Shown here piece by piece: positions 317 to 16,910 of a DNA stretch of 22,876 bases. The notes under the pieces are model-generated. The model did no database searches. It was not told the DNA's origin and saw nothing but the letters and a program-made list of their open reading frames with translations. This DNA comes from a virus: IMG/VR virus record IMGVR_UViG_3300009184_000230, positions 1 to 22,876 of that record; one strand, given 5' to 3'. Position 1 is the first letter of the stretch. Each line of letters starts with the position of its first letter. The translations under genes were made by a program, and so were the position numbers.

Positions 317-323
317 AGGAGGT
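317..323 (+). promoter_or_regulatory. Strong ribosome binding site that fixes the capsid gene start
   Basis: AGGAGGT lies 10 bases before ATG 334. A GTG at 322-324 in the same frame would give four extra residues, but it overlaps this Shine-Dalgarno sequence and has none of its own, so ATG 334 is the likely start. Confidence 0.85.
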
Positions 324-333
324 GAAAAATAAA

Positions 334-1497
334 ATGTCAGAAGAAATTATCAAAAATATGCCTTCAGGTGCGTCTCCAGTTTCTGGATACCCTAACGCTG
401 AAGGTGCTTTCGGTACATCAGACAGCGTGTCAAGCGGCACAGGAGCGTTCTCAGAAAACGGAACTTTCCTAGGCAACAGCCCAACTGCTAACTTTGGTGT
501 AACAACAGGTGCAAACGGTGTAAACCCATCTAGCACTGCGAACAACAACTATCCAGGTACTGGTATCCTACGCCCTGAACAGGCAAGACGATTTATCGAC
601 TATGTTTGGGACGCAACCACACTTGCACAGGACGGTCGCAGAGTTACAATGAGAGCAAACACAATGGAGTTGGAGAAGATTAACGTGGGAGACCGTGTTA
701 TTCGTGCTGCAAACCAGGGTGTTTCAACATACACTAACACAGGTGCAACTTTCTCAAAGGTTGAACTTACCACTAAGAAGATTCGTCTAGACTGGGAAGT
801 TTCTGCGGAGACACTCGAAGATAACATCGAGGGTGCTGCTCTAGAGGACCACCTAGTTCGTCTAATGACTAATGCTTTCGGTAACGACATCGAAGACCTA
901 GCCATTAACGGTGACGGTTCAACAGGTTCGTTCCTAAGCATTATGAATGGATTCATTAACTTGGAGAAGACTAGCCCTAGCGTTAGTTCTGGTAACAACC
1001 CTGGAAGTGCACACGAAGTTATCAACTCAACTCTAGTTGGAAGCAACACTGCGTTCACTGATTGGACTACTGAAAGACTACAAGCACTTATCTTGGCTAT
1101 GCCTCGCAGATACCGTGCCATCACAAATGGACTAAAGTTCTATGCTGGTACAGACACATTTGCTAACATCGTTAAGAATAATGCTACAGTCTACTCAACC
1201 ATTGGTTCTACCGAAAACACTCGTAATGAGTTCATCGGTGGTGCAAACCAGACCTTTGGTGGAGCACGTCAGACTCGTGTTCTAGGTGTACCTGTTCTTG
1301 AAGTTCCTTACTACCCTGCAGGATTCGTTGACCTAACGTTCCCACAGAACCGTATTTGGGGCTTCCAGAGAGATATCACTGTGAACCGTTTCTATGTACC
1401 AAAGAAGGACACTGTAGAATATACAGTATTCGTTCGCTTTGGAATTGCATGGGAAGAACTGGATGCAGTTGCATTCGCAGACACAACAACAGACTAA
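334..1497 (+). CDS. Major capsid protein, HK97-like fold
   Basis: 387 residues from ATG 334. The first ~80 residues are low-complexity, rich in Gly, Ser, Asn and Thr, as in a flexible N-terminal arm. From about residue 86 the pattern is that of the HK97 phage capsid family: a helical stretch (FIDYVWDATTLAQ), then a beta-rich section, then the typical KIRLDWEVSAETLEDNIEG followed by a long helix (EDHLVRLMTNAFGNDIEDLA) and the NGDG turn. The C-terminal half ends with the FVRFGIAWEELDAVAF strand region expected near the end of this family. It is predicted to form the icosahedral shell. Codon choice differs from the neck genes: it favours C-ending codons (AAC, TTC, ATC) and CGT, as expected for a very highly expressed protein. 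A strong RBS precedes it and an intrinsic terminator follows it. No separate decoration gene is obvious between it and the connector apart from the next small gene. Confidence 0.9.
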   Translation: MSEEIIKNMPSGASPVSGYPNAEGAFGTSDSVSSGTGAFSENGTFLGNSPTANFGVTTGANGVNPSSTANNNYPGTGILRPEQARRFIDYVWDATTLAQDGRRVTMRANTMELEKINVGDRVIRAANQGVSTYTNTGATFSKVELTTKKIRLDWEVSAETLEDNIEGAALEDHLVRLMTNAFGNDIEDLAINGDGSTGSFLSIMNGFINLEKTSPSVSSGNNPGSAHEVINSTLVGSNTAFTDWTTERLQALILAMPRRYRAITNGLKFYAGTDTFANIVKNNATVYSTIGSTENTRNEFIGGANQTFGGARQTRVLGVPVLEVPYYPAGFVDLTFPQNRIWGFQRDITVNRFYVPKKDTVEYTVFVRFGIAWEELDAVAFADTTTD

Positions 1498-1599: not shown

Positions 1600-1995
1600 A
1601 TGGCTGAAGAAAAAAAGACATCTACCCCAAAGCCTGTTGTTGAAGATGCAGTTGTAGAAACAGTTGCAGAAGCAGTAGCAGAAGTAGTTGAGGAAAAGGT
1701 TATCGTAGCACCAGAACCAACAAGAGACGTTCCTACATTAGGACATAATGCAGATGGCGTAATTGGTTCAACAACCACAAATGCTGGAAAAGCAAAGGTA
1801 GAAAAGAAAGAGGTTGAAGAAGTAGCAGCAGTTACAAAGATTGCACTATTCTCAACACGCAACGTATACGCAGACGGTTTTGGAAAGATTAATGTTGGAT
1901 ACAACATTGTTCCAAAGAAGTATGCAGACTTCTGGACAACACAAAAAGGCATTCGCCTATGTACTCCAGAAGAAGTAGCGGAGGCATTTGCCTAA
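1600..1995 (+). CDS. Small post-capsid structural protein with acidic N-terminus
   Basis: 131 residues; start supported by AAGGAGG with a 7-base spacer. Residues 1-75 are low-complexity, with Val/Glu/Ala repeats (VVETVAEAVAEVVEEKV) that could form a helix or stay disordered. Residues ~80-131 form a compact domain with the pattern KIALFSTRNVYADGFGKINV, then GYNIV, a Trp-containing segment (ADFWTTQKGIRL) and a CTPEEVAEAF ending. From memory, a domain of this kind (N-V/I ... GYNIV ... W ... VR ... TPEEV) often follows the capsid gene in actinobacterial phages. Its precise role is unknown to me; capsid decoration or head completion is a guess from position. It is the first gene of the neck transcription unit and its stop codon directly abuts the next ATG. 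Confidence 0.75.
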   Translation: MAEEKKTSTPKPVVEDAVVETVAEAVAEVVEEKVIVAPEPTRDVPTLGHNADGVIGSTTTNAGKAKVEKKEVEEVAAVTKIALFSTRNVYADGFGKINVGYNIVPKKYADFWTTQKGIRLCTPEEVAEAFA

Positions 1996-3153
1996 ATGGA
2001 GGTTTTGAGAGTTCCACCTTATCCAATTATAACTAAATGGGATGTGCCAGCGGCTAACACTGCATATTCTGTTTATGTAGAGGATTTGGTGGACCACTCA
2101 TTTGAAACATCTACGCTTACTTCAGATGCAAATAAACAGATATCATATACCTTATCACGTTCAAAAGTACAGTATGACCGTGAATTTTTGTTTAAGGTGA
2201 CAGATTCAAGTGGAGAATTAGTTATAGACGATAACCTAAGCGTCTATCGTCCATATGTTAATCCAAACACACTAGCATCTACAGCAGATGAAATCGCTGA
2301 ATACAAAAAATGGGAAATTATTGCAAGGTCAATTATTGATGGTTATATTCTAGACCATTCTGCAAATGGAGATGCTTTTTATAATCACAAACTTGTTATC
2401 GTCAAAGAAGGTCAGGGTGGAGATTATTTTCCAATCTGGCATAATGTAAACAAAGTTTTAAAAGTATATGAGAACAATGTTCTTATTTATAATGGTGAAG
2501 ATTTTGCCATAACACTACCAACTCAAACACCTACAACATCTTCTGGAACTGTCACACTAACAACACCAATTGCTCATGGATATGAGGTTGGAGACGTAGT
2601 CACTATTTCTGCAGTTGTTCCTACAGGATACCGTGGAAGATTTGTTATTACAGCGGTTCCAACAGCAACATCTTTTAGTTTTGCAAATGCAACAACAGGA
2701 AATATAACTACTGCTGGAACAGTCATTAGAACTTGGGAATACGAATACAAAACATTGCTAGATAACTCTGCTATTGCTAGGGTAGAGGCAAATGGAATAT
2801 ACAATAGAAACGAATCAACTCCACTAAGGCTTCCAGGAGCCTCTGGAGATTTAGCGGTACATGCTGGACAAAGAACTGGATATGCAGCATTTGCAGAAGG
2901 AAGTGACTTCACTTTCATCCTTGACGCTGGCTATAAGACTATTCCACCAGATGTTGAAAGGGCAGCAACAATTTTAATAGAAGAACTAAAATGTGGGTCA
3001 AACGATTATTACAAACGTTTTGTGACTCAGTACAGCACAGACCAATTTGATATTAGATTTGCTCCACAATTTTTGGAGGGAACTGGCAACATGCTTGTTG
3101 ATAAGATTCTTAACAACTATAAGGGCAATGTCTTCAAGCCAGCAATACTATAA
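1996..3153 (+). CDS. Head-tail connector/adaptor-like protein with an inserted beta domain
   Basis: 385 residues. ATG 1996 follows the previous TAA without a gap, and GGAGG (1980-1984) serves as RBS. Residues 1-80 are beta-rich and immunoglobulin-like in pattern (YSVYVEDLVDHSFETSTLTS). Residues ~90-120 contain a helix (ADEIAEYKKWEIIARSIIDG), and residues ~310-385 contain helices with VERAATILIEELKCGSNDYY and a C-terminal segment ending in a VDKILNNYKG helix. Helices of this kind plus the position between capsid and tail genes fit the adaptor ring that sits on the portal (gp6/gp15-like connector). An extra beta domain sits at about residues 182-244 and is listed separately. The assignment rests mainly on gene order; a capsid fibre or head-decoration role cannot be excluded. 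Its TAA overlaps the next ATG by one base. Confidence 0.65.
   Translation: MEVLRVPPYPIITKWDVPAANTAYSVYVEDLVDHSFETSTLTSDANKQISYTLSRSKVQYDREFLFKVTDSSGELVIDDNLSVYRPYVNPNTLASTADEIAEYKKWEIIARSIIDGYILDHSANGDAFYNHKLVIVKEGQGGDYFPIWHNVNKVLKVYENNVLIYNGEDFAITLPTQTPTTSSGTVTLTTPIAHGYEVGDVVTISAVVPTGYRGRFVITAVPTATSFSFANATTGNITTAGTVIRTWEYEYKTLLDNSAIARVEANGIYNRNESTPLRLPGASGDLAVHAGQRTGYAAFAEGSDFTFILDAGYKTIPPDVERAATILIEELKCGSNDYYKRFVTQYSTDQFDIRFAPQFLEGTGNMLVDKILNNYKGNVFKPAIL
2539..2727 (+). other. Inserted small beta-barrel-like domain in the connector
   Basis: Residues ~182-244 read as a self-contained beta unit: VTLTTPIAHGYEVGDVVTIS, then YRGRFVITAV, TSFSFANATTG and TAGTVI. The HGY-x-GD-V-I pattern followed by G-x-F-x-V and T-x-F-x-F resembles the small barrel that databases often label FCCH-like in phage structural proteins (from memory). 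A related unit occurs in the last tail protein at residues ~733-806. Probably a surface-exposed add-on. Confidence 0.5.
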
Positions 3154-3599
3154 TGATATGCGAAACCACAGACTTTACATATCCACTACTTGCTGATATT
3201 TACTATCCAATAGTAGAAACTGGGGCTTATGGTAACACAAAGAAGCAATGGATTTTAGATAAAACAGTTGCTTGTTTTTTTAATGTGGCAGGTAGCAAAT
3301 ATAAACAAGATGTTAATACTGAAGCAAACATCAACATAAGTAATTCTATCATTGGCAGACTTAGAAACGACCCAACAATCTCTAGCACGGACACACTATA
3401 TTCTATTACAAATATTGTTATTACTAATATTAGAAGTTCCGATGGATACACAATTTATAACGAGTCTGCTGGACCACGTTCTGGTAGTTCAACACTCTTT
3501 GAAATATCAACAATAAACCCTATAGTTGGTCCTTTTGGAAAGGTAGAATATTACAAAGTCATGCTCAGACGTTCTGAGAATCAGGCGGTAGACCTTTGA
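3153..3599 (+). CDS. Probable head-closure / head-tail joining protein
   Basis: 148 residues; ATG overlaps the preceding stop by one base (TAATG), so translation is probably coupled. The sequence is beta-rich without membrane segments or a signal peptide. It begins with ETTDFTYPLLADIYYPIVET and contains a GNTKKQWILDKTVACFFN stretch, like the small barrel of stopper proteins that take a short description of the form 'A.....G..KK.W......'. It lies between the connector and two tail-completion-like genes, where SPP1 gp16-like head-closure proteins are found. I do not recognise the family with certainty; the call is by position, size and predicted beta content. The next gene starts inside its stop codon. 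Confidence 0.5.
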   Translation: MICETTDFTYPLLADIYYPIVETGAYGNTKKQWILDKTVACFFNVAGSKYKQDVNTEANINISNSIIGRLRNDPTISSTDTLYSITNIVITNIRSSDGYTIYNESAGPRSGSSTLFEISTINPIVGPFGKVEYYKVMLRRSENQAVDL

Positions 3600-4817: not shown

Positions 4818-4873
4818 TATATAGAGGAAACACCGAACCACAAAATTCATAAATGAAAGATGGTGAAATAAAT

Positions 4874-5632
4874 ATGGCATATACAAGAGGCTCAAACGCT
4901 AACATTATCGTTGGTGCAGCAGCACTATTCGTAACAGTAGACACTAACCAGGGTCTAACTAAGGCAAGCATCCCTACGTTCATTGATGGTGAATCTTACA
5001 AAGAAACACTATCACTTCGTTATTCAGATGTTTTCCGTAACGTTGGATACACAAACAACGGTGTTGAAATCTCATTTGCTCCAGACTTTGGAGAGGTTAT
5101 GGTAGACCAACTACTAGATACCGCTAAACTGTTCAAGCAGGGAATGAAGGTTACACTAAAGACAACTCTAGCCGAAGCAACCTTGGAGAACCTTCTCCTA
5201 GCAATTGCTGGCAAGACATCTGACTTTGGTACACTCAACCTAGGTACTCAGACAGAAACTAATAGACTAGTTACTCTGGGTAATCCAACAACAGTAGTAA
5301 CTGCTGCAACAAACGCAGGAGTTACAACTTCTGGAACAGATACCAACAAATTCCTAGATATTACTTCAGGCGACCTTGGGGACTACCCAATCGAACGTGG
5401 TATTATCGCAGTAGGTCCAGGAACTGGAAACCTATCAGGAGTTGGTAACGCAGGTACATCAGACACACTAAGCAACCAAGCAGAGCGTGTTTACATTGCA
5501 TACCGTGCTATCTCAATCGATAGTGTAACAGTATCAGCAAAGCGTGATTCAGCAACATCCTTCGAAGTATCGTTCCGTCTGCTTCCAGACAACAACGGTG
5601 CTTACGGACGTATCGTTGACCGTTCATACTAA
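4874..5632 (+). CDS. Major tail tube protein
   Basis: 252 residues from ATG 4874. An in-frame ATG at 4853 would add seven residues but has no Shine-Dalgarno sequence; GGTGA at 4862-4866 sits 7 bases before 4874, so I prefer the shorter form. The protein begins MAYTRGSNANIIVGAAALFV and is beta-rich with a central loop-like Gly/Thr/Asn-rich insert (residues ~125-195). The C-terminal section runs SVTVSAKRDSATSFEVSFRL and then DNNGAYGRIVDRSY. A middle helix with FGEVMVDQLLDTAKLFKQG fits the tube protein fold. Size, position between tail terminator and chaperones, its own promoter and terminator, and a capsid-like preference for C-ending codons all indicate the abundant tube subunit that stacks around the tape measure. 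Confidence 0.85.
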   Translation: MAYTRGSNANIIVGAAALFVTVDTNQGLTKASIPTFIDGESYKETLSLRYSDVFRNVGYTNNGVEISFAPDFGEVMVDQLLDTAKLFKQGMKVTLKTTLAEATLENLLLAIAGKTSDFGTLNLGTQTETNRLVTLGNPTTVVTAATNAGVTTSGTDTNKFLDITSGDLGDYPIERGIIAVGPGTGNLSGVGNAGTSDTLSNQAERVYIAYRAISIDSVTVSAKRDSATSFEVSFRLLPDNNGAYGRIVDRSY

Positions 5633-5707: not shown

Positions 5708-6418
5708 ATGCCTACAACAATATACGAAACACATGAACTAGAATTAATAGATGGAACTATCTTAGAAATGTCTCCTCTTAAGATTAAATATTTAAAACAA
5801 TTTATGGATAAGTTTGATTTAATTAAGGAATGCAAAACCGATGAAGAGTCTATTTCTGTTCTTGTGGATTGTGTAAGAATATCAATGAAGCAATTTCATC
5901 CAGTGTTAAAAACTATTGAAGATGTAGAAGATAGTATAGACCTTCCAACAATATATAAAATTATTGATATATGTGCTGGAGTAAAGATGAATAAAGAAGC
6001 CCAAGACAAAAATGATGCATCAGAAATAAAACCAGCAAAGAAAGAAAATAGTTGGGATAGTCTGGATTTGGTAAAATTAGAGTCCGAAATTTTTGTGCTC
6101 GGTGCTTGGAAAAACTTTGACGAATTAGAGTCAAGCATATCTATGCCAGAACTAATGGCTATTCTTGAATCAATAAGAGAACTAGACTATAATGAAAAAA
6201 AGTTTCTTGCTGCGATGCAAGGAGTAGACCTAGATGAATCAAAGAATAAGAATGAACCAGACCCTTGGGAGGCAATGAAAGCCAGGGTAGCGGCACAAGT
6301 ATCTGGTATTGGCAATGGAGACCCTAATGACGTTACATCGTTGCAAGGACAAAAAGCACAACAGTATGGCTTCGGTATCGGCATGGGCCTTGAGTACGAA
6401 GTTATTACCAAAGACTAG
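5708..6418 (+). CDS. Tail assembly chaperone, long form
   Basis: 236 residues. The N-terminal ~97 residues are paralogous to the next gene, sharing M-TTI-ET, E-L-DGT, PLKI, FM-KF, MKQ, DLPT-YKI and G-K, which also confirms the start codon despite the absence of an RBS. After a charged linker (residues ~98-115) comes a C-terminal domain with LGAWKNFDELESSISMPELM, FLAAMQGVDLDE, DPWEAMKARVAAQVSG, GDPNDVTSLQGQKA and GFGIGMGLEYE. Such a pair of domains corresponds to the long product (gpGT-like) of siphovirus tail chaperone genes, which binds the tape measure and recruits tube protein and is not part of the finished tail. Here it is encoded in one unbroken frame. I see no canonical slippery heptamer at the domain boundary. 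The gene is probably translated from a leaderless message. Confidence 0.8.
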   Translation: MPTTIYETHELELIDGTILEMSPLKIKYLKQFMDKFDLIKECKTDEESISVLVDCVRISMKQFHPVLKTIEDVEDSIDLPTIYKIIDICAGVKMNKEAQDKNDASEIKPAKKENSWDSLDLVKLESEIFVLGAWKNFDELESSISMPELMAILESIRELDYNEKKFLAAMQGVDLDESKNKNEPDPWEAMKARVAAQVSGIGNGDPNDVTSLQGQKAQQYGFGIGMGLEYEVITKD

Positions 6419-6459: not shown

Positions 6460-6783
6460 ATGTCTACAACTATTAATGAAACTAAAACAGTAGAACTATT
6501 GGACGGAACAAAAATTAGCGTTCGTCCACTAAAAATCTCTCTTCTTCGCCCTTTTATGACAAAGTTTGAGGGTATCGCAGAAGTAGCAGATAACAACGAG
6601 AAGTCAATGACTCTTCTCATGGAGTGTGTACAAATTGCTATGAAGCAGTACGCTCCAGAACATGCCACAGACCTAAAGGCTCTAGAAGAACTTCTAGACC
6701 TTCCTACAGTATACAAGATTGTCGAAGAGGCATCTGGTATTAAACTTAGCGAGGCTTCGCTAATGGGTGGTCTAATCGGCTAA
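6460..6783 (+). CDS. Tail assembly chaperone, short form (paralogue of the upstream gene)
   Basis: 107 residues with a strong RBS. Nearly the whole protein aligns with residues 1-97 of the preceding gene; by eye roughly 40 of 97 aligned positions are identical, with two single-residue gaps. It ends shortly after the shared domain (KLSEASLMGGLIG) and lacks the C-terminal domain, so it corresponds to the short product (gpG-like) of a tail chaperone gene. In lambda-like phages short and long forms come from one gene by ribosomal frameshifting and the short form is in excess. Here they appear to be two genes, and the short one has the stronger translation signals. It is followed by an 17-base gap and the tape measure gene, as expected for this family. 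Confidence 0.8.
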   Translation: MSTTINETKTVELLDGTKISVRPLKISLLRPFMTKFEGIAEVADNNEKSMTLLMECVQIAMKQYAPEHATDLKALEELLDLPTVYKIVEEASGIKLSEASLMGGLIG

Positions 6784-6800: not shown

Positions 6801-9800
6801 ATGGCTGATATCGAATCAAATATAAAAGTTAATATAGATACGTCAGATGCTCTGTCGCAACTAAAACTTTTACAACAGCAGATATCAGCCTTCCAACAGG
6901 CAATGAAAAATGCTGGAGCACAAAATGCTTCAGCCGCTGTTCAAATGCAGCAAAACTTGATGACATCCATCAATGCTACTGGCAAGTTTTCTGCAAATAT
7001 ACAAACAATTAAAACAAGTGCGGAATCTTTTACAGAGTCCCTCGAAAAGAACAAACTATCTATAGGTCAATACTTTAGGTATGCTGGTGGTGCATCTAAA
7101 ACTTTTGGAAAACTGTTCAAATCTGAATTTGAAACTATTCAGCAAGTAGCAGTAGACAGAGTAAAGACTATACAGACCCAGTATATTAAACTTGGTCGTG
7201 ATGCTTCTGGAGCAATGAAAGCAATTGCTGTTAGACCACTTGCTCTCGATATGGATAATTTGGGAACAAAAACCCAAATAGCGGCACAGAAACAGCAACT
7301 CTTTAACCAGTTGATGAAGCAAGGCTCTACACAACTTCTAAACTTTGGTAAGAACACTCAGTGGGCTGGTCGCCAACTTATGGTTGGTTTTACTATTCCA
7401 CTTACATTAATGGGTCAGGCAGCAGCCCAAGCCTATATGAAGATTGAAGCAGCATCTCTAAAGTTTAGGCGTGTTTATGGAGACATGAATACAACAACAG
7501 AAGAAACCAATAAAATGGTTAAATCTGTTCAAGCACTTGCAAATGAGTTTACAAAATATGGTATTGCTGTTGCAGATACCATGGACATGGCTGCTCAAGC
7601 AGCGGCTATGGGTAAAACAGGCACTGACCTTATGCAACAGGTTGCTCAGGCATCAAAACTTTCGGTACTTGGTCAAGTAGAGCAACAGCAAGCATTAGAA
7701 ACAACCATTAGCCTTACAAACGCTTTTGGTATATCTACAGATGAACTAGCAAAAAGCGTAGACTTCCTTAACGCAGTAGAAAACCAAACTGTTGTTAGCA
7801 TCGAAGACCTTACAATTGCTATTCCAAAAGCAGCCCCAGTAGTTAAACAACTTGGTGGAGATGTCGAAGACCTAACATTCTTCCTGACAGCAATGAAGGA
7901 AGGTGGCATTAACGCATCTGAAGGTGCTAACGCACTTAAGTCTGGTCTTGCATCTATGATTAATCCAACTAAAAAGGCTTCGGACTTTTTGGCACAATTT
8001 GGAGTCAACATTAAAGCAATTGTTGAGGGAAACAAGGGAGACATTAAGGGAACAGTTGTTGATTTTGCTAAGGCACTGGACACATTAGACCCACTAAATC
8101 GTGCTCGTGCAATTGAACAGATGTTTGGTAAATTCCAATTCTCTCGTCTATCTACACTATTCAAGAACGTAATTGATGAGGGTAGCCAAGCAGCCACGGT
8201 AGCAGGTCTTGCAAATCAAACAGCAGAAGAACTTGCAGTATTGTCAGAACGAGAAATGAGTAAAATCTCAGACTCTCCTATGTTTAAATTTCAAAAATCT
8301 ATTCAAGATATGCAAACCAAACTTGCTCCAGTTGGAGAAGCATTCCTAAAGGCTGTAACTCCAATTATTGAATTTGTGACAAAGATTTTAGATGGCTTCA
8401 ACAATCTTAGTGAAGGAACAAAATCTTTTGTTTCTATATTAGTTTTGGCTGTTGCTGGTATTGGTCCTGCATTGCTAATGACATTTGGTCTTATTGCTAA
8501 CGGTGTGGCAAACATTATGAAACTCTTTACTAATATGAAGGCTTTCATAAATAAAACTACAAAACCATCCGATGTTCTTGGAGAACAAACTTCTTACATG
8601 AACACAGAGCAGTTAAAGAGTGCTGCTATTGCTGCATCTCTAGACCAGGCTCACGCAAAACTTCGTCAAACATTCACTTCCGAGGCTGCTGCAGTTCAAC
8701 AACTGACAGACGCTTATAGAAATGCTGTACAGGCTCAACAGGCTTATTCTGGTATTCCAGGTATTCCAACAGGAAATCCAAATGCTACACCTAGAAAATA
8801 TGCTAACGGTGTATCTATGGTTCCAGGTCCTTCGGGTGCAGGTGACATTGTTCCAGCACTACTATCTCCAGGTGAAGCAGTTATTCCTGCAAGGTCTGCT
8901 AAAAAGTATGCTCCAGTAATTCGTGGCATGATTGCTGGAAACCTTCCAGGATTTGAGGATGGCACTCCAGGTGCAGGTATGCGTCAAAGCATGATTGGTC
9001 CAATGACCGAAAAACAAATTGAAGGTCTTGCAAGAACAGGAAAAACTCTTAAAGAGATTAGCGATGAAGTTTATGCAGGTCCTTATGGTCAAACTCCACC
9101 AACAAATTATGGCACACAAATCACTCCAAGTGCTGGACATTCTTTCCCTGCATTTGGTGTTGCTGGAGTATATGAAAAACCAGACGGAACAAAAGTATTC
9201 GTTAAGCCACAAATGGACTTAGTTTCTGCAATGGCAGAAATTAGAGGAACAACTATTGCTCGTGACGTACATGGACTTGTAGCACCAAAGCAATCGCTTC
9301 GTGTAATGATGGACCCAACAGACCCAGAAGACAAGAGAAAATTCTTAGTTCTTGAGTCAGCATTGGACGAGAGACTTGCTAATGTTCCAACAGAATTTAC
9401 TAAAGACCAATACTTTAAACAACTTGTTGCGTCTCTTCTTCGTGGAGATAAAGACCTTGGTGTTGGAAACCTTGGAGGAAACGTCCTTGCTGACGTTGGT
9501 CCTGCTGGGGTATTCCAAAGAGCATCTGGTAAACGTGCTCTTGGTAGCCAAATTAACTCTATGGAAGAACAAGCAATCATTAATCTTCTTGGCGTAAAGG
9601 GTGGTGCTAAGAGATTCTTTGCTGAGGCAACATCAGATATTGCTAAGAGTATGACCCCTGCTGAATATGATGCAGCAATCAAGGCAGAGATTCAGGCAGT
9701 TGCTCCAAGACTTCAGGCTACAATTGCTGGATTTGGAAATCTTAACCCAGAAGAAAAGGCAGCATACATGGCTATGCAGCAAAGACTTCAGGCAGGTATG

Positions 9801-12800
9801 GGGGTTGACTGGGCTAAGTATCAGGTCATGCATTCGAAAGTGCCTACAAAGAAACTTGCTGAAGGTGGATTTGTTGGCATTGAAAATAGTCAGTCATTTG
9901 CTCAAAGTTTGATGAGCATGTCTAGTGATGAGATAAAGAAACAACTTAATATCAATGACACTCACTTAGTTACTCCAATAGATTTAACCAAGAATCCACA
10001 AGTTCTTAAACAGATTACAGATATACTTCCAGGAGTAACTAAAGAAGAACTTCGTGGTTTTGAACCAGTATCTAATTTGACAGCCCAACTTCCAGCAAAC
10101 ATGAATCAGAAGATGAAGACTAGTGGTTATCCTTCATCAACATTTAGTTCAATTTGGAATGGTTTTGTTGGCAAACTATCGAAGAGTGCAACTATTGCTG
10201 GAATTGATTTGCCAAGTTCTCAAATAATTGAAGATGAATTGGGTACACAAATTGCTGCTGCTGGCGGAAATATAACTGATGGAACAATTAATGACATCAT
10301 TGGAAATGTTCTTGGAAAATCTTCAAAAGTAACTGACATAAATGAAAGTAAACAAAAACTATATAGTTTAGCACTTAAGGTTGCACAACTTAGAAGCAAA
10401 CCAAAACAATTAAGCCAATCAGGTAATGATTCAATTCATTCAATTGTTCTTAGAATGATAAGGGATGGCTCTGCACAATTTAATGATAACGGAACAAGTA
10501 TTGTTAGAACTATTGGACAAGGAAATGTTACAAGATTTGGAACCTGGGAATTTGAAGGTATTGGAACTGGCAAAGAAGAAGGAACAATAGAACAAAAAGA
10601 AATACGCAGAAGAGCACAAGAAGCAGCATATGGTTCTACTGGCTGGGCATCACTAAGAAATTGGAATGCCCCTATGCCAACAGTAAATCGAGAACTTGTT
10701 AAACCTAAAGACTGGGCGGAAGTAACTAATCCTGCAACCTGGAATAGAATGACTAAAGAACAGCAGAGACAATATCTTTCTACAATACAAGGAACTAAAC
10801 CAACAACTCTTGGATTTAGAAAGCAAGACTATGAACAAGGTTTTGGAGATAACAAGGGTCCTGCATCAGGATGGACATACGATTCTAGTAAACTAAAGGC
10901 TGGAATTAAATGGAGAAATTCCGAACAAGCCATGCAAATGGGATACAACGAAATGGCTGCAAATGGAATTATCCCATCAGCAGGACAAGCATTCTTTAAT
11001 AAGTTAGCCCTAGGTAAAGAACCTGTAAGAATGGCTGAGGGTGGCATTGTTCCAGGTGGAATGGGTAAGCCTAAAGCATCCGTATTTGACGTAGACGATA
11101 CACTGCTTGACCTAGCATCGTTCATGCCAGCACACCAAGAAAGAAATGCAAAACTACCTAAAGAACAAAGACTTAATTGGTGGGAAGAAGTAGCCAAAGA
11201 CCCTAAAGGTATTCCTGCTGCTATTCAAAGACTAAAAGATGCTCAGATGCGTGGTAATAAGATTCTTCTTATGACTGCAAGACCAAAGACTTATGATGCT
11301 GTTACATTGGATACCCTGCAAAAACTGGGTATTGATACTAAGGGTGTCAAACTAATTTCTAGAGAAAATAAAGATTATCGTAAACCAGAACAGATGAAGT
11401 ATGACAAAACTTCTAAGTATATGCAATGGTATGACATTGAAGAGTTCTATGACGATATGGCTAAGACTCGTGGTGCTGTAAGTCTTCTAGGTATTAATAC
11501 TATTAATCCTCTTAAACTTGCTAAGGGTGGTGTTGTTCCTGGATATGCTAAGGGTACTCCAAGAGTTTTAGATACTATCGAGCAAAAGTTCCCAGGAATG
11601 TTTACTCAACTTCCTAAATCAAGGATGATGCAGTATAGTGAAGGTGCAACTAAGCCAGAGGCAAATAAAAAAGTTTTCACATCTTCAAGATTAAAGAGTT
11701 TTAAGTTTGAAGATTGGAACAGAACATATGACTTAGACGAACTAGCACAAATCGCTACAATGATAACTCAGGGTGAGTTTAGTGGTATAGGAAAGTCTGT
11801 ATATAGTAAAAAAACTGGTAAATATAAGAGAATTGGTGTTCCTACCTTCGATGATTTGCTTGTAAATGGAAAACCTATTTTGCAAGAACTTCCAGGGTAT
11901 CAAAAATATTCTTTAGGATATGAAGGAGAAGAAGTATACGCTGGAATTGCTAGAAATAAAATAGCAATGCTACAGTCTCTTCAAGACTGGATTTATCAAG
12001 ATGACTGGGGTAAAGAAGCAAGTGAATTTACTGTAAATGGAATACCTGCAAAAACTTTCTTTAAAGGATTATCTTTAAACCAATACAGAGTTCCAGGACA
12101 AAAAACAAAATCAAAGCCATACTTTTTTGCTGACGGTGTGTTCTCAGTTCCAGGACCAAAGGGTGCTGGCGATGTAGTTCCTGCTATGCTATCTCCAGGT
12201 GAGGCTGTTATTCCTGCCAAGCAAGCAGCACAGCACCGTCCAATGATTCAGCAAATGATTGCTGGTAATCTTCCAGGATATATTAAAGGAAGTCCAGGGG
12301 TAGGAATAAATTCAGTATTCAGTTCTGAGGTAGCAATGGAATCTGGAAAGCCACTAAATGTTAACATTGTAAAAGATGAAACAGCAAAGTCAGATAAACC
12401 ATTAGAAATACTTCAACCAAATTCAAAAGTGACAATTCTAACTCGTGAGCAAATCGAAGAACAGATGTCTATTGAAGATGAGGTATATAGACAACTTTTG
12501 GAAAAAGAAAAAGAATTAAAATTAAAGCACGTTCTTACTGAAGAGGAAAGAAAGTTGCTAGAGTCAAATAAGCAAATTATGCTTAAAAAAGAAGAAGCGT
12601 TTAAACTTCAAAAGAATGTGACAGAAAAAGAAAAAAGAGGTTTCTTTACAAGAAATGCTACAACTGGAAAAGTTCAGGGTGCGATGTATGGTCTTTCTGC
12701 AGCAGCAGGTCTTGCATCAACTGTGCCAGGTGCTGTAGGGGAAAGTGCACAGCAGATGCTTCCAGTTATTGGTGCTGCTACCGCTGCAATGTCTGTTATT

Positions 12801-15800
12801 CCTGGCTATGCTGGTATGATTGTTGGAGCAGGTGCAGCATTGGTTACAGCCTACATGCAGGTACAAGACAAGTTAAATAAGATTAGAGATGAGGCATTGG
12901 CTCTAGGAACTGCTATGGGTTCATCTACAAAGTCTATTGATAAATTTGCGGAATTTGCTAAAACTGTTACAGGTAGCCAAGCAATGGATAAGCGTAGAGA
13001 AACCAGTGCAGGAAGTTTCTTTAATGTTGTTCAAGGTAAAACAACATTTGGTGAATCATACATGAAGAGCGATGCTGGAAAAGAATTAGTCAAATCTGTT
13101 GGTGCAGCAATTAAGGGTGGCGGTTTAGACCAAGCAAAGGCAATGATTGTAAATCAACTTGGTACTGCAATAGCCAGTGGTGCTTTGTCTCCTGCTCAGG
13201 CTAGAAGTATTGCTTCAAATCTAGGTGCTCAACTAGGAGATATGTCTTTAGGTATCGAAGTGGCAGGAAAAATAACTGACCTCGTAGGTCCAAAAGGTGA
13301 AGACTTAAAGAAAGAACCTTTAGAAATAAGAATGCGTCTTGTTGCTGAGTCTATGGAACAGTTTAAAAAACAGGCAGAAATTTCTAACGCTAATGTTAAT
13401 GATACTGCAAAGAATGCAGGAACATCTGGTGCAGGTATTGGTCTAGGTATGGGTGCTGGTGCAGCGGCTGGCGGTATAGCCCTAGGAGCAGCATCCTTAA
13501 TGGGTGGCGTTGCTTCATCTTCTGCAATAGTTGCAGGTCTTGCAACAGCAGGAAGTGCAGTGCCAGTTATTGGAACTATTATTGGAGCACTTGTAGGATT
13601 CTCAATTGCTGCAGTTCAACTACAAGGAGATATTGCAAAAAATGCTGGTTACCTACAAGCAAGTTTAGGAAGTGCTTTATCAGTTCAACAGCAAATGGTT
13701 GACTCACTTACAGTAGACTATGAAAAAAGAATACAAGCAGCAAAGGCTGCTGGAGATACAGCAGAAGCAACTAGACTACAAAATCAATACCTTGCAGACC
13801 AAGCAGAGTTGCTACAGTTTAATAAAGAACAAACTCAGGAAATGTATAGCATATTGGAGTCTCAAGGGACTGGACTTGGATTTATGCTTAACGCACAAAT
13901 TGCAAATCTCGATACAGCAAGAGAAGGATTAAAGAAAGCATTTGAAGGCAGTGGTCAGGAAGTACAGGCTAAACTTGCACAAGAACAAATAGATTCTATG
14001 GCTGGTTCTGCTACCCAAAAGACTATGCTTATGTCAGCAGTTGCTCAAAAGCAAATAGGATTAAATCAAATTGGCGTTGCAAAAACAGCATTCGGTGCAG
14101 ACCAAGCAGGAGCAGACACATTACAGACATTGATGGAAAATAGTCCAACAGAATTAAATAGAACTCTTGGGTTGGCAGGAAATATGGGAGCGGTAGAGCA
14201 AAAGAAGTTTGTTTTAGACATGAGTCTTAAAGACCCTATTGAAGCAAAGGTGATGAATGATGCTGTAGAACTGGCACAAAAAACAACTGGCGTGTTCTTT
14301 GGAGAAAAGAAAACAGCAGAAGCAATTATGAAATTTGCTGTAGAAAATCCAGAAAAAATGTTAGAGTTCCAGCAAAACGTAGCAGAACTAAAAGATGTTG
14401 ATGGAGCAAAATTTGATATTACGGTTGCACAAAAAATTCTTGGTCCAGACTTGGCAAAGGCTTTGGGAGAAAAGAGCGTAGGAGCATACTTTAAGAAATA
14501 CAACAAGCAAAACAAGGTTGTATTCCTATCCGAGTTCCAACAAGTAATGACAATGCTTCAAGAGGGTGACAAAGACATGATTGATTCATACAATGCATGG
14601 AATGCGTCAAACGGAATGAAAAAGACATATGCCGATTATGCTGCTTGGCAGTCCGATAGAACAGTTACTACTCAAGGAGTAGATAATACAAAGGCACCAG
14701 GAGAAGACGGTGGAACAGGAGAAAAGGCTGGACCACAGGCATCAATTCTTGACCAGTTTGTTCAAATGGCGAGAGAGACTTCTAACTTCCAGCAAAAACT
14801 AACTACAGGATGGGATGCATCTCTTGCTGCTTTAAAGAGGTATACAATTACTTCTATTAACTTGCTTGCTGGTTGGGCGGTACGTCTAAAGCAACAAGGT
14901 GTAAGTGCAAATATGATAGACGTATTTATGGGTGCTACAGAAGAAGAGCAAGATAAAATTATTAATAAAAGAACTGGAGCACTCCTACCAGGGGCACTAG
15001 ACTTACTTAGAAAACTTCAGATTATTAAAGATAAAAAAGAATTTGGATTGTCTTATGTTCTTGCAAGTCCAACAGAAAGACTAGCAAAAGATAATGGTCT
15101 ATATCAGGCAGGTCTTGATGTCATTGCTAATAAAGAAAAAAAGATTAATGAAAAATATGATAAACGTATTAAAGCACTTGACCAGATTGGTAAGATTCAA
15201 GAAAAGAATAACCAAAGACAGCAAGATACTTTAACTATTGCAGATGCTTTGTCTAAGGGTGATATTGCTGCAGCCGCTAGAGCAGCACTAACCGCTAAAC
15301 AGAATAGTCAAAGATTAGCATTGGAAGATGCAAAAGAGAGCACAGAACTTGCTCGTAAAACTGAACTTGAGGCTATTACAGTTAAGATTTTAGGAGAAAC
15401 ACAAACACGCTCAGACCTAGAGGCAATAATTGCAACAAATACTGAAAAAATTGCAGCAAATAAACTTGTAGAAATGAATCGTCAAATCACAATTGGTCGA
15501 AATGCTGTTATTGCTGCTGAACAAAGTGCTATTCTTTTAGCAAATTCAACACTTATTTCAAAACTTCCTGGAGCAAACGGTGGTGGCTCTAGTACTGGTA
15601 GTGGAAAAGGCAATGGTGGAAAAGGCAATGGTGGAAAAGGTGATGGTGGAAAAGGTGATGGTGGAAAAGGTGATAAGGGTGGAAATAATGCCAATGATAC
15701 CGATTCAAAACCTACTGGGGTAGTTGGAAATATTGCAAGTTCTGTACAGGGTAAAGCATTTACAGCGGCAATTAAAGGTGCTCAGGATGTTACTCCTGGT

Positions 15801-16910
15801 GCTTTAAAGGCTGCTCAAGATTATGCTACTGCTAAGAAAAATGCAGGGGCATCAATGAGCGATGCTGCTGCAGAAAAGAAATTTGGTGGAAAAAATACTC
15901 CAGAATTTAAAAAATGGAAAGCAAATCAAATAAAACTTGCTAAAGCATTAACAGCAGCACAGGATTATGGTCTTGTCGATAGTTATGGTAACGTTCTTAC
16001 AGCAGACCAAGTTACTAATGCAACTACTTATCAAAAAAATACAATGCTTTCTTCAAAAAGTGGTCAAGCAGATGCAGCAGAATCCTTAAAGGGCATCCCA
16101 GCAGAAATTGCTTCTAGAGCAAAATTGATTAAAAATTCAAATAAAGATTTTGCAGCAGACAAAACAAAACTTGATGAAATGAAGAAAACATTTGAAAAAG
16201 CAGGTGGTATATTGTATATGCTTCCAGGATACTATCAAACATGGTTAAATACCTCAGATGCTTTAAGACCTACAACTCCTTTTGGAAAACTTATTGCAAA
16301 AGGTGCTAAACCAGAAGAACTTATAAATCAAGCAACAAAAATGGCAACGAAGTTTGGTGAAATAGATAATTATAGAAAAGAACTTAGGACTGCTGGGTAC
16401 ACAGAGAGTATGCTTTTCCAGGCTAAACTATTTGATAGTACTGATGGTCGTGATGGACAAACTTTAAAACAAAGTTCTGATTTTGCATCTGGTCAAATGT
16501 TTAATCCACACAAACCCTATACAGGAACAAATATTGGATATGGTAAAAACCAAATACTTCCAGATGCAGAAAACATGCTTAGGTTTGCTAATCAATATTA
16601 TGCTATGGGTGGTATGGTTTATGCAAACAAAGGGCTTAAGGTTGCAGCAAGCAAGTATGCTCTTGGAACAGACACTATTCCAGCCATGCTAACTGCTGGA
16701 GAATTTGTTATGAGGAAATCAGCGGTAGATAGAATTGGCTCAAGAACACTAACCAAAATGAATGATGGAACATCTTCAGGAGATTCAGTGTATAATTATA
16801 GTATTACATTAAACGTCAATTCATCATCTGACTCTAACGACATTGCAGATGCAGTCCTTAGACAGATTAAGAGAATTGATTCACAAAGAATTAGGAGCAG
16901 TGCTATATAA
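6801..16910 (+). CDS. Giant tape measure protein with embedded enzyme-like modules
   Basis: 3,369 residues in one frame; weak RBS GGTG at 6790-6793. Tape measures set tail length and line the tube lumen. Seen in order: N-terminal coiled coil (1-120); TP901-type core (~146-500); hydrophobic segment (~540-577); linker copy A (668-726); insert of about 1,050 residues (727-1776) with four modules; linker copy B (1777-1835); charged coiled coil (~1865-1930); hydrophobic segments (~1961-2018 and ~2212-2275); long helical stretches; a GKGNG/GKGDG repeat (2935-2959); a C-terminal GG-V linker with IPAMLTAGEF (3268-3323); and a C-terminus with SITLNV and DAVLRQIKRIDSQRIR, as in actinophage tape measures. 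It is long for the family, which is usually about 700-2,000 residues. At roughly 1.5 angstrom per residue the whole would span about 500 nm; without the insert about 350 nm. I see no lysozyme or peptidase motif. Its stop overlaps the next start by one base. Confidence 0.93.
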   Translation: MADIESNIKVNIDTSDALSQLKLLQQQISAFQQAMKNAGAQNASAAVQMQQNLMTSINATGKFSANIQTIKTSAESFTESLEKNKLSIGQYFRYAGGASKTFGKLFKSEFETIQQVAVDRVKTIQTQYIKLGRDASGAMKAIAVRPLALDMDNLGTKTQIAAQKQQLFNQLMKQGSTQLLNFGKNTQWAGRQLMVGFTIPLTLMGQAAAQAYMKIEAASLKFRRVYGDMNTTTEETNKMVKSVQALANEFTKYGIAVADTMDMAAQAAAMGKTGTDLMQQVAQASKLSVLGQVEQQQALETTISLTNAFGISTDELAKSVDFLNAVENQTVVSIEDLTIAIPKAAPVVKQLGGDVEDLTFFLTAMKEGGINASEGANALKSGLASMINPTKKASDFLAQFGVNIKAIVEGNKGDIKGTVVDFAKALDTLDPLNRARAIEQMFGKFQFSRLSTLFKNVIDEGSQAATVAGLANQTAEELAVLSEREMSKISDSPMFKFQKSIQDMQTKLAPVGEAFLKAVTPIIEFVTKILDGFNNLSEGTKSFVSILVLAVAGIGPALLMTFGLIANGVANIMKLFTNMKAFINKTTKPSDVLGEQTSYMNTEQLKSAAIAASLDQAHAKLRQTFTSEAAAVQQLTDAYRNAVQAQQAYSGIPGIPTGNPNATPRKYANGVSMVPGPSGAGDIVPALLSPGEAVIPARSAKKYAPVIRGMIAGNLPGFEDGTPGAGMRQSMIGPMTEKQIEGLARTGKTLKEISDEVYAGPYGQTPPTNYGTQITPSAGHSFPAFGVAGVYEKPDGTKVFVKPQMDLVSAMAEIRGTTIARDVHGLVAPKQSLRVMMDPTDPEDKRKFLVLESALDERLANVPTEFTKDQYFKQLVASLLRGDKDLGVGNLGGNVLADVGPAGVFQRASGKRALGSQINSMEEQAIINLLGVKGGAKRFFAEATSDIAKSMTPAEYDAAIKAEIQAVAPRLQATIAGFGNLNPEEKAAYMAMQQRLQAGMGVDWAKYQVMHSKVPTKKLAEGGFVGIENSQSFAQSLMSMSSDEIKKQLNINDTHLVTPIDLTKNPQVLKQITDILPGVTKEELRGFEPVSNLTAQLPANMNQKMKTSGYPSSTFSSIWNGFVGKLSKSATIAGIDLPSSQIIEDELGTQIAAAGGNITDGTINDIIGNVLGKSSKVTDINESKQKLYSLALKVAQLRSKPKQLSQSGNDSIHSIVLRMIRDGSAQFNDNGTSIVRTIGQGNVTRFGTWEFEGIGTGKEEGTIEQKEIRRRAQEAAYGSTGWASLRNWNAPMPTVNRELVKPKDWAEVTNPATWNRMTKEQQRQYLSTIQGTKPTTLGFRKQDYEQGFGDNKGPASGWTYDSSKLKAGIKWRNSEQAMQMGYNEMAANGIIPSAGQAFFNKLALGKEPVRMAEGGIVPGGMGKPKASVFDVDDTLLDLASFMPAHQERNAKLPKEQRLNWWEEVAKDPKGIPAAIQRLKDAQMRGNKILLMTARPKTYDAVTLDTLQKLGIDTKGVKLISRENKDYRKPEQMKYDKTSKYMQWYDIEEFYDDMAKTRGAVSLLGINTINPLKLAKGGVVPGYAKGTPRVLDTIEQKFPGMFTQLPKSRMMQYSEGATKPEANKKVFTSSRLKSFKFEDWNRTYDLDELAQIATMITQGEFSGIGKSVYSKKTGKYKRIGVPTFDDLLVNGKPILQELPGYQKYSLGYEGEEVYAGIARNKIAMLQSLQDWIYQDDWGKEASEFTVNGIPAKTFFKGLSLNQYRVPGQKTKSKPYFFADGVFSVPGPKGAGDVVPAMLSPGEAVIPAKQAAQHRPMIQQMIAGNLPGYIKGSPGVGINSVFSSEVAMESGKPLNVNIVKDETAKSDKPLEILQPNSKVTILTREQIEEQMSIEDEVYRQLLEKEKELKLKHVLTEEERKLLESNKQIMLKKEEAFKLQKNVTEKEKRGFFTRNATTGKVQGAMYGLSAAAGLASTVPGAVGESAQQMLPVIGAATAAMSVIPGYAGMIVGAGAALVTAYMQVQDKLNKIRDEALALGTAMGSSTKSIDKFAEFAKTVTGSQAMDKRRETSAGSFFNVVQGKTTFGESYMKSDAGKELVKSVGAAIKGGGLDQAKAMIVNQLGTAIASGALSPAQARSIASNLGAQLGDMSLGIEVAGKITDLVGPKGEDLKKEPLEIRMRLVAESMEQFKKQAEISNANVNDTAKNAGTSGAGIGLGMGAGAAAGGIALGAASLMGGVASSSAIVAGLATAGSAVPVIGTIIGALVGFSIAAVQLQGDIAKNAGYLQASLGSALSVQQQMVDSLTVDYEKRIQAAKAAGDTAEATRLQNQYLADQAELLQFNKEQTQEMYSILESQGTGLGFMLNAQIANLDTAREGLKKAFEGSGQEVQAKLAQEQIDSMAGSATQKTMLMSAVAQKQIGLNQIGVAKTAFGADQAGADTLQTLMENSPTELNRTLGLAGNMGAVEQKKFVLDMSLKDPIEAKVMNDAVELAQKTTGVFFGEKKTAEAIMKFAVENPEKMLEFQQNVAELKDVDGAKFDITVAQKILGPDLAKALGEKSVGAYFKKYNKQNKVVFLSEFQQVMTMLQEGDKDMIDSYNAWNASNGMKKTYADYAAWQSDRTVTTQGVDNTKAPGEDGGTGEKAGPQASILDQFVQMARETSNFQQKLTTGWDASLAALKRYTITSINLLAGWAVRLKQQGVSANMIDVFMGATEEEQDKIINKRTGALLPGALDLLRKLQIIKDKKEFGLSYVLASPTERLAKDNGLYQAGLDVIANKEKKINEKYDKRIKALDQIGKIQEKNNQRQQDTLTIADALSKGDIAAAARAALTAKQNSQRLALEDAKESTELARKTELEAITVKILGETQTRSDLEAIIATNTEKIAANKLVEMNRQITIGRNAVIAAEQSAILLANSTLISKLPGANGGGSSTGSGKGNGGKGNGGKGDGGKGDGGKGDKGGNNANDTDSKPTGVVGNIASSVQGKAFTAAIKGAQDVTPGALKAAQDYATAKKNAGASMSDAAAEKKFGGKNTPEFKKWKANQIKLAKALTAAQDYGLVDSYGNVLTADQVTNATTYQKNTMLSSKSGQADAAESLKGIPAEIASRAKLIKNSNKDFAADKTKLDEMKKTFEKAGGILYMLPGYYQTWLNTSDALRPTTPFGKLIAKGAKPEELINQATKMATKFGEIDNYRKELRTAGYTESMLFQAKLFDSTDGRDGQTLKQSSDFASGQMFNPHKPYTGTNIGYGKNQILPDAENMLRFANQYYAMGGMVYANKGLKVAASKYALGTDTIPAMLTAGEFVMRKSAVDRIGSRTLTKMNDGTSSGDSVYNYSITLNVNSSSDSNDIADAVLRQIKRIDSQRIRSSAI
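7236..8300 (+). other. TP901-type tape measure core domain
   Basis: Residues ~146-500 carry the recognisable core of phage minor-tail/tape measure proteins: WAGRQLMVGFTIPLTLMGQA, AAQAAAMGKTGTDLMQQVAQ, TNAFGISTDELAKSVDFLNA, then FFLTAMKEGGINASEGANAL and RARAIEQMFGKFQFSRLSTL. This identifies the gene product regardless of the unusual insert downstream. Confidence 0.85.
8802..8978 (+). repeat. Linker repeat copy A in the tape measure
   Basis: Residues 668-726: ANGVSMVPGPSGAGDIVPAL, then LSPGEAVIPA, later IAGNLPG and TPGAG. Aligns without gaps to residues 1777-1835, 39 of 59 positions identical by my count. The G-GD-VPA-LSPGEAVIPA core is a known tape measure linker type (usually seen once, near the C-terminus). 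Confidence 0.85.
9123..9836 (+). other. Kinase-like domain embedded in the tape measure (module 1)
   Basis: Residues ~775-1012. A beta-hairpin with GVYEKPDGTKVFVKP places a lysine (K802) on a strand, followed 11 residues on by E813 in a helix (SAMAEIRGTTIARDV). A hinge-like FLVLESALDE follows (848-857), then a loop with R-GDKDLGVGNLGGNVLAD (D883, D885, N890, N894) and D898. Lys, Glu, Asp, Asn and Asp in this order and spacing match the ATP-binding and catalytic residues of kinase-fold enzymes of the PI3/4-kinase or HipA-like type, where the catalytic loop reads GD-x-x-x-x-x-N. Inference only; substrate unknown. The glycine-rich loop is weak, so it might be inactive or a different fold. Confidence 0.4.
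9879..11024 (+). other. Unrecognised module 2 in the tape measure insert
   Basis: Residues ~1027-1408, bounded by the short linkers AEGGFVG (1020-1026) and AEGGIVPGG (1412-1420). The first half is helical with many Asn, Ile and Ser; the second half is rich in Trp, Arg, Gln and Gly (GWASLRNWN, DWAEVTNPATWNRM, GWTYDSSKLKAGIKWRN). It does not resemble tape-measure sequence and I recognise no family. Codons are more AT-rich than in module 1. Confidence 0.5.
11073..11510 (+). other. HAD-superfamily phosphatase-like domain embedded in the tape measure (module 3)
   Basis: Residues ~1425-1570. Motif I is FDVDDTLLD with nucleophile D1430 and acid/base D1432. Motif II is KILLMTARP with T1492. Lysines K1533, K1536 and K1539 are candidates for motif III, and motif IV is EEFYDD with D1551 and D1552. 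All residues needed for HAD chemistry are in the right order within about 145 residues. A helix carrying IPAAIQRLKDAQMRGNKI precedes motif II, as in the polynucleotide 3'-phosphatase of T4 Pnkp and acid-phosphatase-like HADs. Expected activity is phosphomonoester hydrolysis with Mg2+; the substrate is unknown. Bounded by GG-V linkers on both sides. Confidence 0.8.
11562..12128 (+). other. Unrecognised module 4 in the tape measure insert
   Basis: Residues ~1588-1776, between linker AKGGVVPGYAKGTP (1574-1587) and linker copy B. Mixed alpha/beta, rich in Tyr, Lys, Phe and Trp (LKSFKFEDWNRTYDLDELAQ; LPGYQKYSLGYEGEEVYAG; SLQDWIYQDDWGKEASEF). No family recognised and no catalytic motif seen. Confidence 0.5.
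12129..12305 (+). repeat. Linker repeat copy B in the tape measure
   Basis: Residues 1777-1835: ADGVFSVPGPKGAGDVVPAM, then LSPGEAVIPA, IAGNLPG and SPGVG. Second copy of the 59-residue linker at 668-726. It closes the roughly 1,050-residue insert, after which coiled-coil and hydrophobic tape-measure-like sequence resumes. Confidence 0.85.
12681..12854 (+). other. Hydrophobic segment in the tape measure
   Basis: Residues ~1961-2018 are almost free of charges and rich in Ala, Gly, Val, Ile and Met (GLSAAAGLASTVPGA; GYAGMIVGAGAALVTAYM). Possible membrane-inserting hairpin used during DNA ejection, as known for other tape measures. Confidence 0.55.
13440..13620 (+). other. Second Gly/Ala-rich hydrophobic segment in the tape measure
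   Basis: Residues ~2214-2274: GLGMGAGAAAGGIALGAASL, then VAGLATAGSAVPVIGTIIGA and LVGFSIAAV. Long enough for two membrane spans. Confidence 0.55.
15603..15677 (+). repeat. 15-bp in-frame tandem repeat, five copies
   Basis: Units GGAAAAGGCAATGGT (two copies), GGAAAAGGTGATGGT (two copies) and a final variant ending GATAAG encode GKGNG, GKGNG, GKGDG, GKGDG, GKGDK (residues 2935-2959). It lies in a Gly/Ser/Asn-rich hinge between helical regions and is likely a flexible, slippage-prone spacer. Confidence 0.95.
16602..16769 (+). other. C-terminal tape measure linker related to the internal repeats
   Basis: Residues 3268-3323: AMGGMVYANKG, GTDTIPAMLTAGEFVMRKSA, then RIGSRTLTKMNDG. This is the usual C-terminal tape measure motif and a distant relative of linker copies A and B (D-x-x-PA-L-x-x-GE). 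Confidence 0.75.

Follow-up and report, generated by a model that had tools for sequence, protein, structure and literature searches.

Exchangeable enzyme-like modules in a linker-framed slot of a phage tape measure protein

Why would the ruler of a phage tail hold about a thousand residues of globular sequence in its middle? The question is raised by a window that comprises one entire contig of 22,876 bases from an uncultured tailed phage (IMG/VR record IMGVR_UViG_3300009184_000230). On family matches and gene position, one of its open reading frames (ORFs) is firmly assigned as encoding a phage tape measure protein (TMP). The original prediction, made from the letters alone, was that a modular cassette lies inside this protein, framed by a duplicated linker and perhaps gained by recombination there. 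The cassette is real and has been repeatedly shuffled among relatives, and it extends the theme of injected multi-enzyme proteins and TMP-fused enzymes. Judging from the sequences, the balance tips slightly towards a TMP with a second role, as a vehicle for interchangeable enzymes that are ejected along with the genome. Coordinates of all features are collected in Table 1.

The cassette is set apart from the remainder of the protein by both its borders and its composition. The 59-residue linker that precedes it (linker A) recurs at its end (linker B) without a gap and with 39 of 59 positions identical, as first described. The underlying DNA self-match (8801-8980 against 12128-12307) spans 180 nt with 69% of positions identical (E 3e-15), far above chance, and its borders lie within about 3 nt of those first given. 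Alanine, glutamine and lysine together make up mostly 0.17-0.28 of each 120-residue block of the cassette versus about 0.28-0.33 in the majority of blocks from the N-terminal part and the tape, while tryptophan, tyrosine, phenylalanine and proline account for 0.08-0.22 between the linkers versus mostly 0.04-0.09 elsewhere; the change of texture first described is thus borne out on both counts. Three GG-V motifs, placed here at residues 1022, 1414 and 1576 (originally 1020, 1412 and 1574), divide the cassette into four modules, and these borders coincide with domain borders derived independently from homologues. For modules 1 and 2 the predicted structures are globular, which speaks against long tape-measure helices running through residues 727-1776. 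The LSPGE-type linker had been said to occur usually near the C-terminus, and a further LTAGE copy does stand there, at residue 3297, about 70 residues before the end.

Module 1 is predicted from its model to have a kinase fold with an intact active site. The AlphaFold2 model, built on a 46-sequence alignment, has a mean predicted local distance difference test (pLDDT) score of 91. With VIA, it matched Bacillus CotH at Z 11.7 over 218 residues (4.0 A), followed by CtkA (10.6), PI4KII-alpha (10.1) and HipA (9.1). LepB, Fam20, PI3K and actin-fragmin kinase were matched as well, nearly all of the listed rows were atypical kinases, and the rows of several subfamilies (HipA, CotH, CtkA, PI4K) are close in Z. 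Six residues (K802, E813, D883, D885, N890 and D898) are invariant in 81 of 81 homologues. The positions typical of active kinases are K802 (strand 3), E813 (helix C), D885, N890 and D898-x-G900; in model numbering they correspond to K76 in strand 72-77, E87 in helix 81-96, D159 and N164 past helix 142-155, and D172-x-G174, and they were assigned by the order of structural elements, not by superposition. Among the best viral matches of the model are large phage proteins annotated as portal protein or as ADP-ribosyltransferase, the sort of proteins that have been proposed as injected effectors (PMC5512222). A host or cellular source for module 1 was not found, since its profile matched no genome contig among 84,980 species genomes.

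Turning to the other modules, the sequence of module 3 predicts a phosphatase of the HAD superfamily, again with an intact active site. It matched Pfam Acid_phosphat_B at 1e-15 (57.6 bits against a cut-off of 27), and its PDB profile matches were class C acid phosphatases and the polynucleotide kinase-phosphatase Pnkp1. HAD motifs I (DxDDT), II (T), III (K/R) and IV (DD) are present, and D1430, D1432, T1492, R1527, D1551 and D1552 are invariant in 15 of 15 copies. Module 2 has a confident AlphaFold2 model (pLDDT 85) and six residues (H, N-Q, K, D, R) that are invariant in 19 diverse homologues.

Relatives were gathered by three scans, which yielded 17 loci with cassette parts, 80 TMPs sharing the N-terminal core, and about 400 loci encoding module 1, of which 80 were kept. 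Across 116 distinct TMPs the module arrangement varies widely; close relatives do not all share one continuous sequence, and the different modules found between their linkers agree with the modular proposal. Single steps can be seen in close relatives of the window: L004 lacks module 4, such that its HAD module runs directly into linker B, and L107 lacks both HAD and module 4. DNA identity between L007 and the window is mostly 76-84% over the core and kinase, about 45% over module 2, 76-91% over HAD and module 4, and about 38-50% over the tape; module 2 of L007 has been replaced by unrelated-looking sequence, and its tape looks unrelated likewise. Units of module 4, or of module 4 plus linker, are duplicated in L007 and L010 with 82% nucleotide identity. 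Between the window and L002, identity climbs about 27 codons ahead of linker A and drops at the end of the HAD module. Synonymous divergence (dS) for this pair is 0.71 in the core and 0.24 in both the kinase and HAD modules, which argues that cassette DNA was exchanged recently, after the cores had diverged. In general, the breakpoints of exchange coincide with, or lie close to, the borders of linkers and modules.

The kinase and HAD modules are bound to this one gene. Module 1 was present in 32 of 62 distinct TMPs retrieved solely through their core, at either 52-67 or 298-345 residues past the core. Conversely, of 138 ORFs that include the kinase module, 136 also encode the TMP core, as do all 36 that include the HAD module; the two exceptions are a cut contig and a split ORF. 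Both modules are therefore TMP parts and not free genes caught by chance. The whole cassette had no match in 50,697 annotated phage genomes, and neither the kinase nor the HAD module alone gave anything significant against annotated phage genomes. In L087 (9142-14488) and L091 (5303-12020), the TMP is split into two ORFs in different frames and the interruption lies within the kinase module or close to it, reflecting either sequencing errors or a real disruption.

Other enzyme-like modules occupy the same slot in relatives. In L024 the kinase is followed by a cytidyltransferase-like module (PHROG 7e-8) and a GNAT-like module (E 6e-4, just below the Pfam cut-off), and L153 combines kinase, HAD and GNAT-like modules. 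Disparate catalytic domains are thus predicted within one phage polypeptide both in the window (kinase fold and HAD) and in L024 (GNAT-like and nucleotidyltransferase-like). L024:12794-13807 shows the cytidyltransferase-like motifs GAHQPFTTAHE and LLLGQDR and the GNAT-like RRMGIA, each module being edged by GG-V linkers. Where HAD and module 4 would be, L012:11900-12802 carries HipA/PI4K-like motifs (GGYRIIDGKKYYVK, GNDDGHTNNILFN and VNLDLG), which may mean that this TMP holds two kinases unrelated to each other. This reading (NDDGHTNNILFN...NLDLG) had no library match, and hhalign with the kinase profile gave a match of only 34 columns over the expected Gly/Lys/helix region (P 0.012). Modules at L005:12581-14731 and L020:15173-16201 share their C-terminal 120 residues (35% identity, E 4e-14) and bear the ADP-ribosyltransferase (ART)-like motifs GPGTYFAED and GYIGYEHG, again with no library match for the ART-like reading. 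Since the libraries gave no confirmation, the L012 kinase and the L005/L020 ART readings stay motif-level leads.

How the frame arose can be approached through the linkers themselves. Across the window's clade, A copies are most like A copies and B copies most like B copies, so the duplication is old, with the frame inherited and the contents swapped. A recent A/B duplication as the origin of the cassette is ruled out by the same grouping. The proposed gain by recombination at the repeated linker consequently holds in part: breaks do fall at or near linker borders, but the duplication is old and the borders between modules are used too. A version joining linker A directly to the sequence after linker B, which the original prediction had suggested looking for, was found in none of the 116 distinct TMPs; the kinase-less TMPs L072 and L027 still have about 200 residues or more of other sequence past linker A. 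Outside the clade, the TMPs of L045, L060, L067 and L083 also have a second linker, and the contents of their variable zones are unrelated. The zone of L083 includes an HNH-looking stretch (ASHIMPEKNADGTKNWANLKNL), and weak Pfam matches, such as DUF3626 in that of L060, fell below the cut-off. Since the second linkers of L045 and L083 are nearest to the A-type linkers of other phages, linker duplications appear to have arisen independently in these two.

If the slot is filled so variably, does it count towards tail length? In 69 complete TMPs the variable zone ranges from 396 to 2149 residues (coefficient of variation 0.39). The remainder sums to 2081±138 residues (coefficient of variation 0.07) and correlates with the zone at -0.20, so that total TMP length in this group follows cassette content. 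With so constant a remainder beside so variable a zone, the cassette probably lies outside the ruler, and tail length would be set by the constant part only. The core is 61-94% identical in most relatives. Ratios of nonsynonymous to synonymous change (dN/dS) are 0.07-0.26 for the kinase, 0.08-0.22 for HAD and 0.05-0.12 for the core, placing the modules within or somewhat above the core range; by this measure the kinase and HAD modules are under purifying selection.

A TMP acting as a carrier could operate as follows. The ruler would consist of the conserved N-terminal core and the conserved tape, and the linker-framed slot between them, with hydrophobic segments on either side, would hold a string of exchangeable enzyme-like modules, looped out of the ruler or left uncounted by it. 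During infection, the TMPs of long-tailed phages are thought to pass out of the tail and into the cell envelope (PMC10770324, PMC13277306). If the window TMP leaves through the tail at infection, its enzymes would arrive in the host cell, or at its membrane, as soon as infection begins and could modify host components there, and host pressure may in turn change the module set. By hydropathy, the cassette sits between segment 543-561 of the core and segments 1989-2007 and 2226-2272 after linker B, with the same layout in the relatives checked. A membrane-inserted TMP would therefore show the cassette as a loop on one face, and the cytoplasmic face would suit ATP-dependent and similar activities. 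A carrier function is favoured because of these hydrophobic flanks, the ATP-type activities, and the viral matches of the injected-effector kind.

Several points weigh against this reading. Folded domains of 20-35 kDa may not fit the lumen of a siphophage tail unless they are unfolded or rearranged. The support for a cassette outside the ruler is indirect, coming from TMP lengths and not from tail lengths. For module 1, the best Foldseek match in the PDB was CtkA at only E 4.3e-3, and Pfam found nothing credible in 46 members, which leaves the model, the top VIA Z score and the invariant residues as the basis for calling it a kinase; a PDB profile search with the module gave no match. Module 2 has no sequence or fold relative, PDB included, and relatives of module 4 were found only in TMPs, such that an activity is not assignable to either one.

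Different fates for the cassette must also be considered. Known TMP-borne enzymes are mostly wall hydrolases, and the modules might similarly act at the cell envelope during penetration by modifying phosphorylated components of the wall or membrane. In structure the HAD module is best matched by class C acid phosphatases, a group of outer-membrane or lipoprotein enzymes, and a position between hydrophobic segments would allow either side of the membrane. However, the kinase, GNAT-like and nucleotidyltransferase-like modules would need ATP, acetyl-CoA or NTPs, which are cytoplasmic, and Pfam detected no peptidoglycan-hydrolase family in 100 variable-zone segments (one PHROG match was labelled endolysin), which leaves action at the envelope doubtful. 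A role in virion assembly within the producing cell, for instance by phosphorylating or dephosphorylating tail or chaperone proteins, with the cassette then riding along covalently attached, would accord with CotH as the top structural match of module 1, as CotH is a kinase of structural spore-coat proteins, and with the synthesis of the TMP inside the host, where ATP is available. It is unlikely nonetheless: close relatives lack HAD and only 32 of the 62 TMPs with the same core have the kinase, so neither is generally required for assembly, and varying activities in one slot are better suited to a changing partner than to a constant virion.

TMP processing is known in other phages, and globular modules on flexible Gly-rich linkers would be cleavable. 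The cassette could then be split off by proteolysis, or made from an internal start, and function as normal late proteins inside the cell, without being delivered. This is quite unlikely given that selection holds the modules in frame within a 10-kb gene and that kinase and HAD were never separate genes in the loci examined, where internal starts were not specifically searched for. Finally, the high variability in the length and content of the zone might suggest a passive insertion hot spot, with non-enzymatic domains and additional sequence that is either tolerated or used to adjust tail length. The low dN/dS, the lack of any variation at the predicted catalytic residues across 81 kinase and 15 HAD copies, and a cassette length uncorrelated with the rest of the TMP make such a passive role very improbable.

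Taking delivery by the TMP as the preferred reading, a broader and more tentative proposal can be made. Across a large set of uncultured phages, probably of actinobacteria, the TMP may be a general delivery platform whose uncounted internal slot holds swappable effectors (kinases, a phosphatase, and GNAT-, nucleotidyltransferase- and ART-like enzymes) that enter with the genome, as a phage counterpart of polymorphic toxins and of the effectors of tail-derived injection systems. Domain shuffling in phage proteins was surveyed in 2023, and tape measures gave signs of mosaicism, of which none could be confirmed as genuine and recent (PMC10684548). In the present TMP set, modules with defined borders are seen to be gained, lost, replaced and duplicated at those borders. 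Once ruler and cargo are told apart in the TMP, it can also be tested directly whether tail length is predicted by total TMP length, as is assumed. Should the cargo be delivered, its enzymes would be candidates for the phage's earliest weapons against its host, and the slot could reveal how a tail accepts foreign cargo.

The window as a whole is a head-to-tail gene block with capsid-like, connector-type and tail-tube-like genes, two genes in the chaperone position, the TMP and two distal tail genes. The host is likely actinobacterial, since the closest isolate TMP cores, at about 30% identity, belong to Streptomyces phages. In many phages, two forms of the tail-assembly chaperone come from one gene via frameshifting. 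Here the two small genes assigned to that position by size, order and reading (5708-6418 and 6460-6783) are separate ORFs and paralogues, with 43% identity over 100 residues.

Table 1. Features of the tape measure protein and its gene block in the window.
Feature	Position (nt)	Strand	Residues	Basis
Major capsid-like gene	322-1497			capsid PHROG match
Connector-type genes	between capsid-like and tail-tube-like genes			gene order
Tail-tube-like gene	4853-5632			size, gene order, reading only
TMP ORF, 3369 aa	6801..16910	+		Pfam PhageMin_Tail 7e-28; PHROG tail length tape measure 1e-99
N-terminal TMP core, conserved; hydrophobic segment 543-561	6801..8801	+	1-667	relatives' identity; hydropathy
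Linker A (VPGPxGAGDxVPAxLSPGEAVIPA...)	8802..8978	+	668-726	protein and DNA self-alignment
Module 1, predicted atypical kinase-fold domain	8979..9845	+	727-1015	AlphaFold2 model, fold matches, invariant residues
Module 2, globular domain, starts with GGFV linker	9846..11030	+	1016-1410	AlphaFold2 model, homologues
Module 3, predicted HAD phosphatase domain, starts with GGIVPGG linker	11031..11522	+	1411-1574	Pfam, PDB profile, motifs
Module 4, starts with GGVVPGY linker	11523..12095	+	1575-1765	homologue comparison; present/absent/duplicated in relatives
Linker B	12129..12305	+	1777-1835	protein and DNA self-alignment
Tape region past cassette; hydrophobic segments 1989-2007, 2226-2244, 2254-2272	12306..16907	+	1836-3369	homologue comparison; hydropathy
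Third linker copy, degenerate (LTAGE)	16602..16700	+	~3268-3300	sequence reading
Two distal tail genes	downstream of TMP			minor-tail PHROG matches

Among known systems, TMPs with peptidoglycan hydrolase domains resemble the window TMP in having catalytic domains embedded in the ruler itself. They differ in activity, as the window cassette matched no peptidoglycan-hydrolase family and its predicted activities are those of a kinase and a phosphatase. Another relevant case is the virion RNA polymerase fused to the TMP of Thermus phage P23-45, a siphophage in which a non-wall enzyme is proposed to be active in the host when infection starts and for which relatives without the fusion exist (PMC10770324). 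That fusion is a single N-terminal polymerase, whereas the window TMP has a mid-protein string of exchangeable modules framed by duplicated linkers. The polyvalent proteins of phages and conjugative elements likewise join unrelated catalytic domains in one polypeptide, recombine as cassettes and are proposed to be injected with DNA; kinases, GNATs and T4-Alt-like ADP-ribosyltransferases are among the domains discussed (PMC5512222). Their fusions are on head proteins such as MuF and portal and on other large proteins, with tape measures not mentioned in the paper's text, and their kinases are described as lacking the C-terminal subdomain (PMC5512222). The model of module 1 has several helices past the catalytic loop and may differ from those kinases in this respect. 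Lastly, the actinobacterial contractile injection effectors Sle1 and Tme pair a coiled-coil, TMP-like carrier with exchangeable functional domains and are loaded in the tail tube (PMC13277306). They belong to bacterial nanomachines and bear their functional domain at the C-terminus, whereas in the window the carrier would be the phage's own ruler and the cargo would occupy an internal slot.

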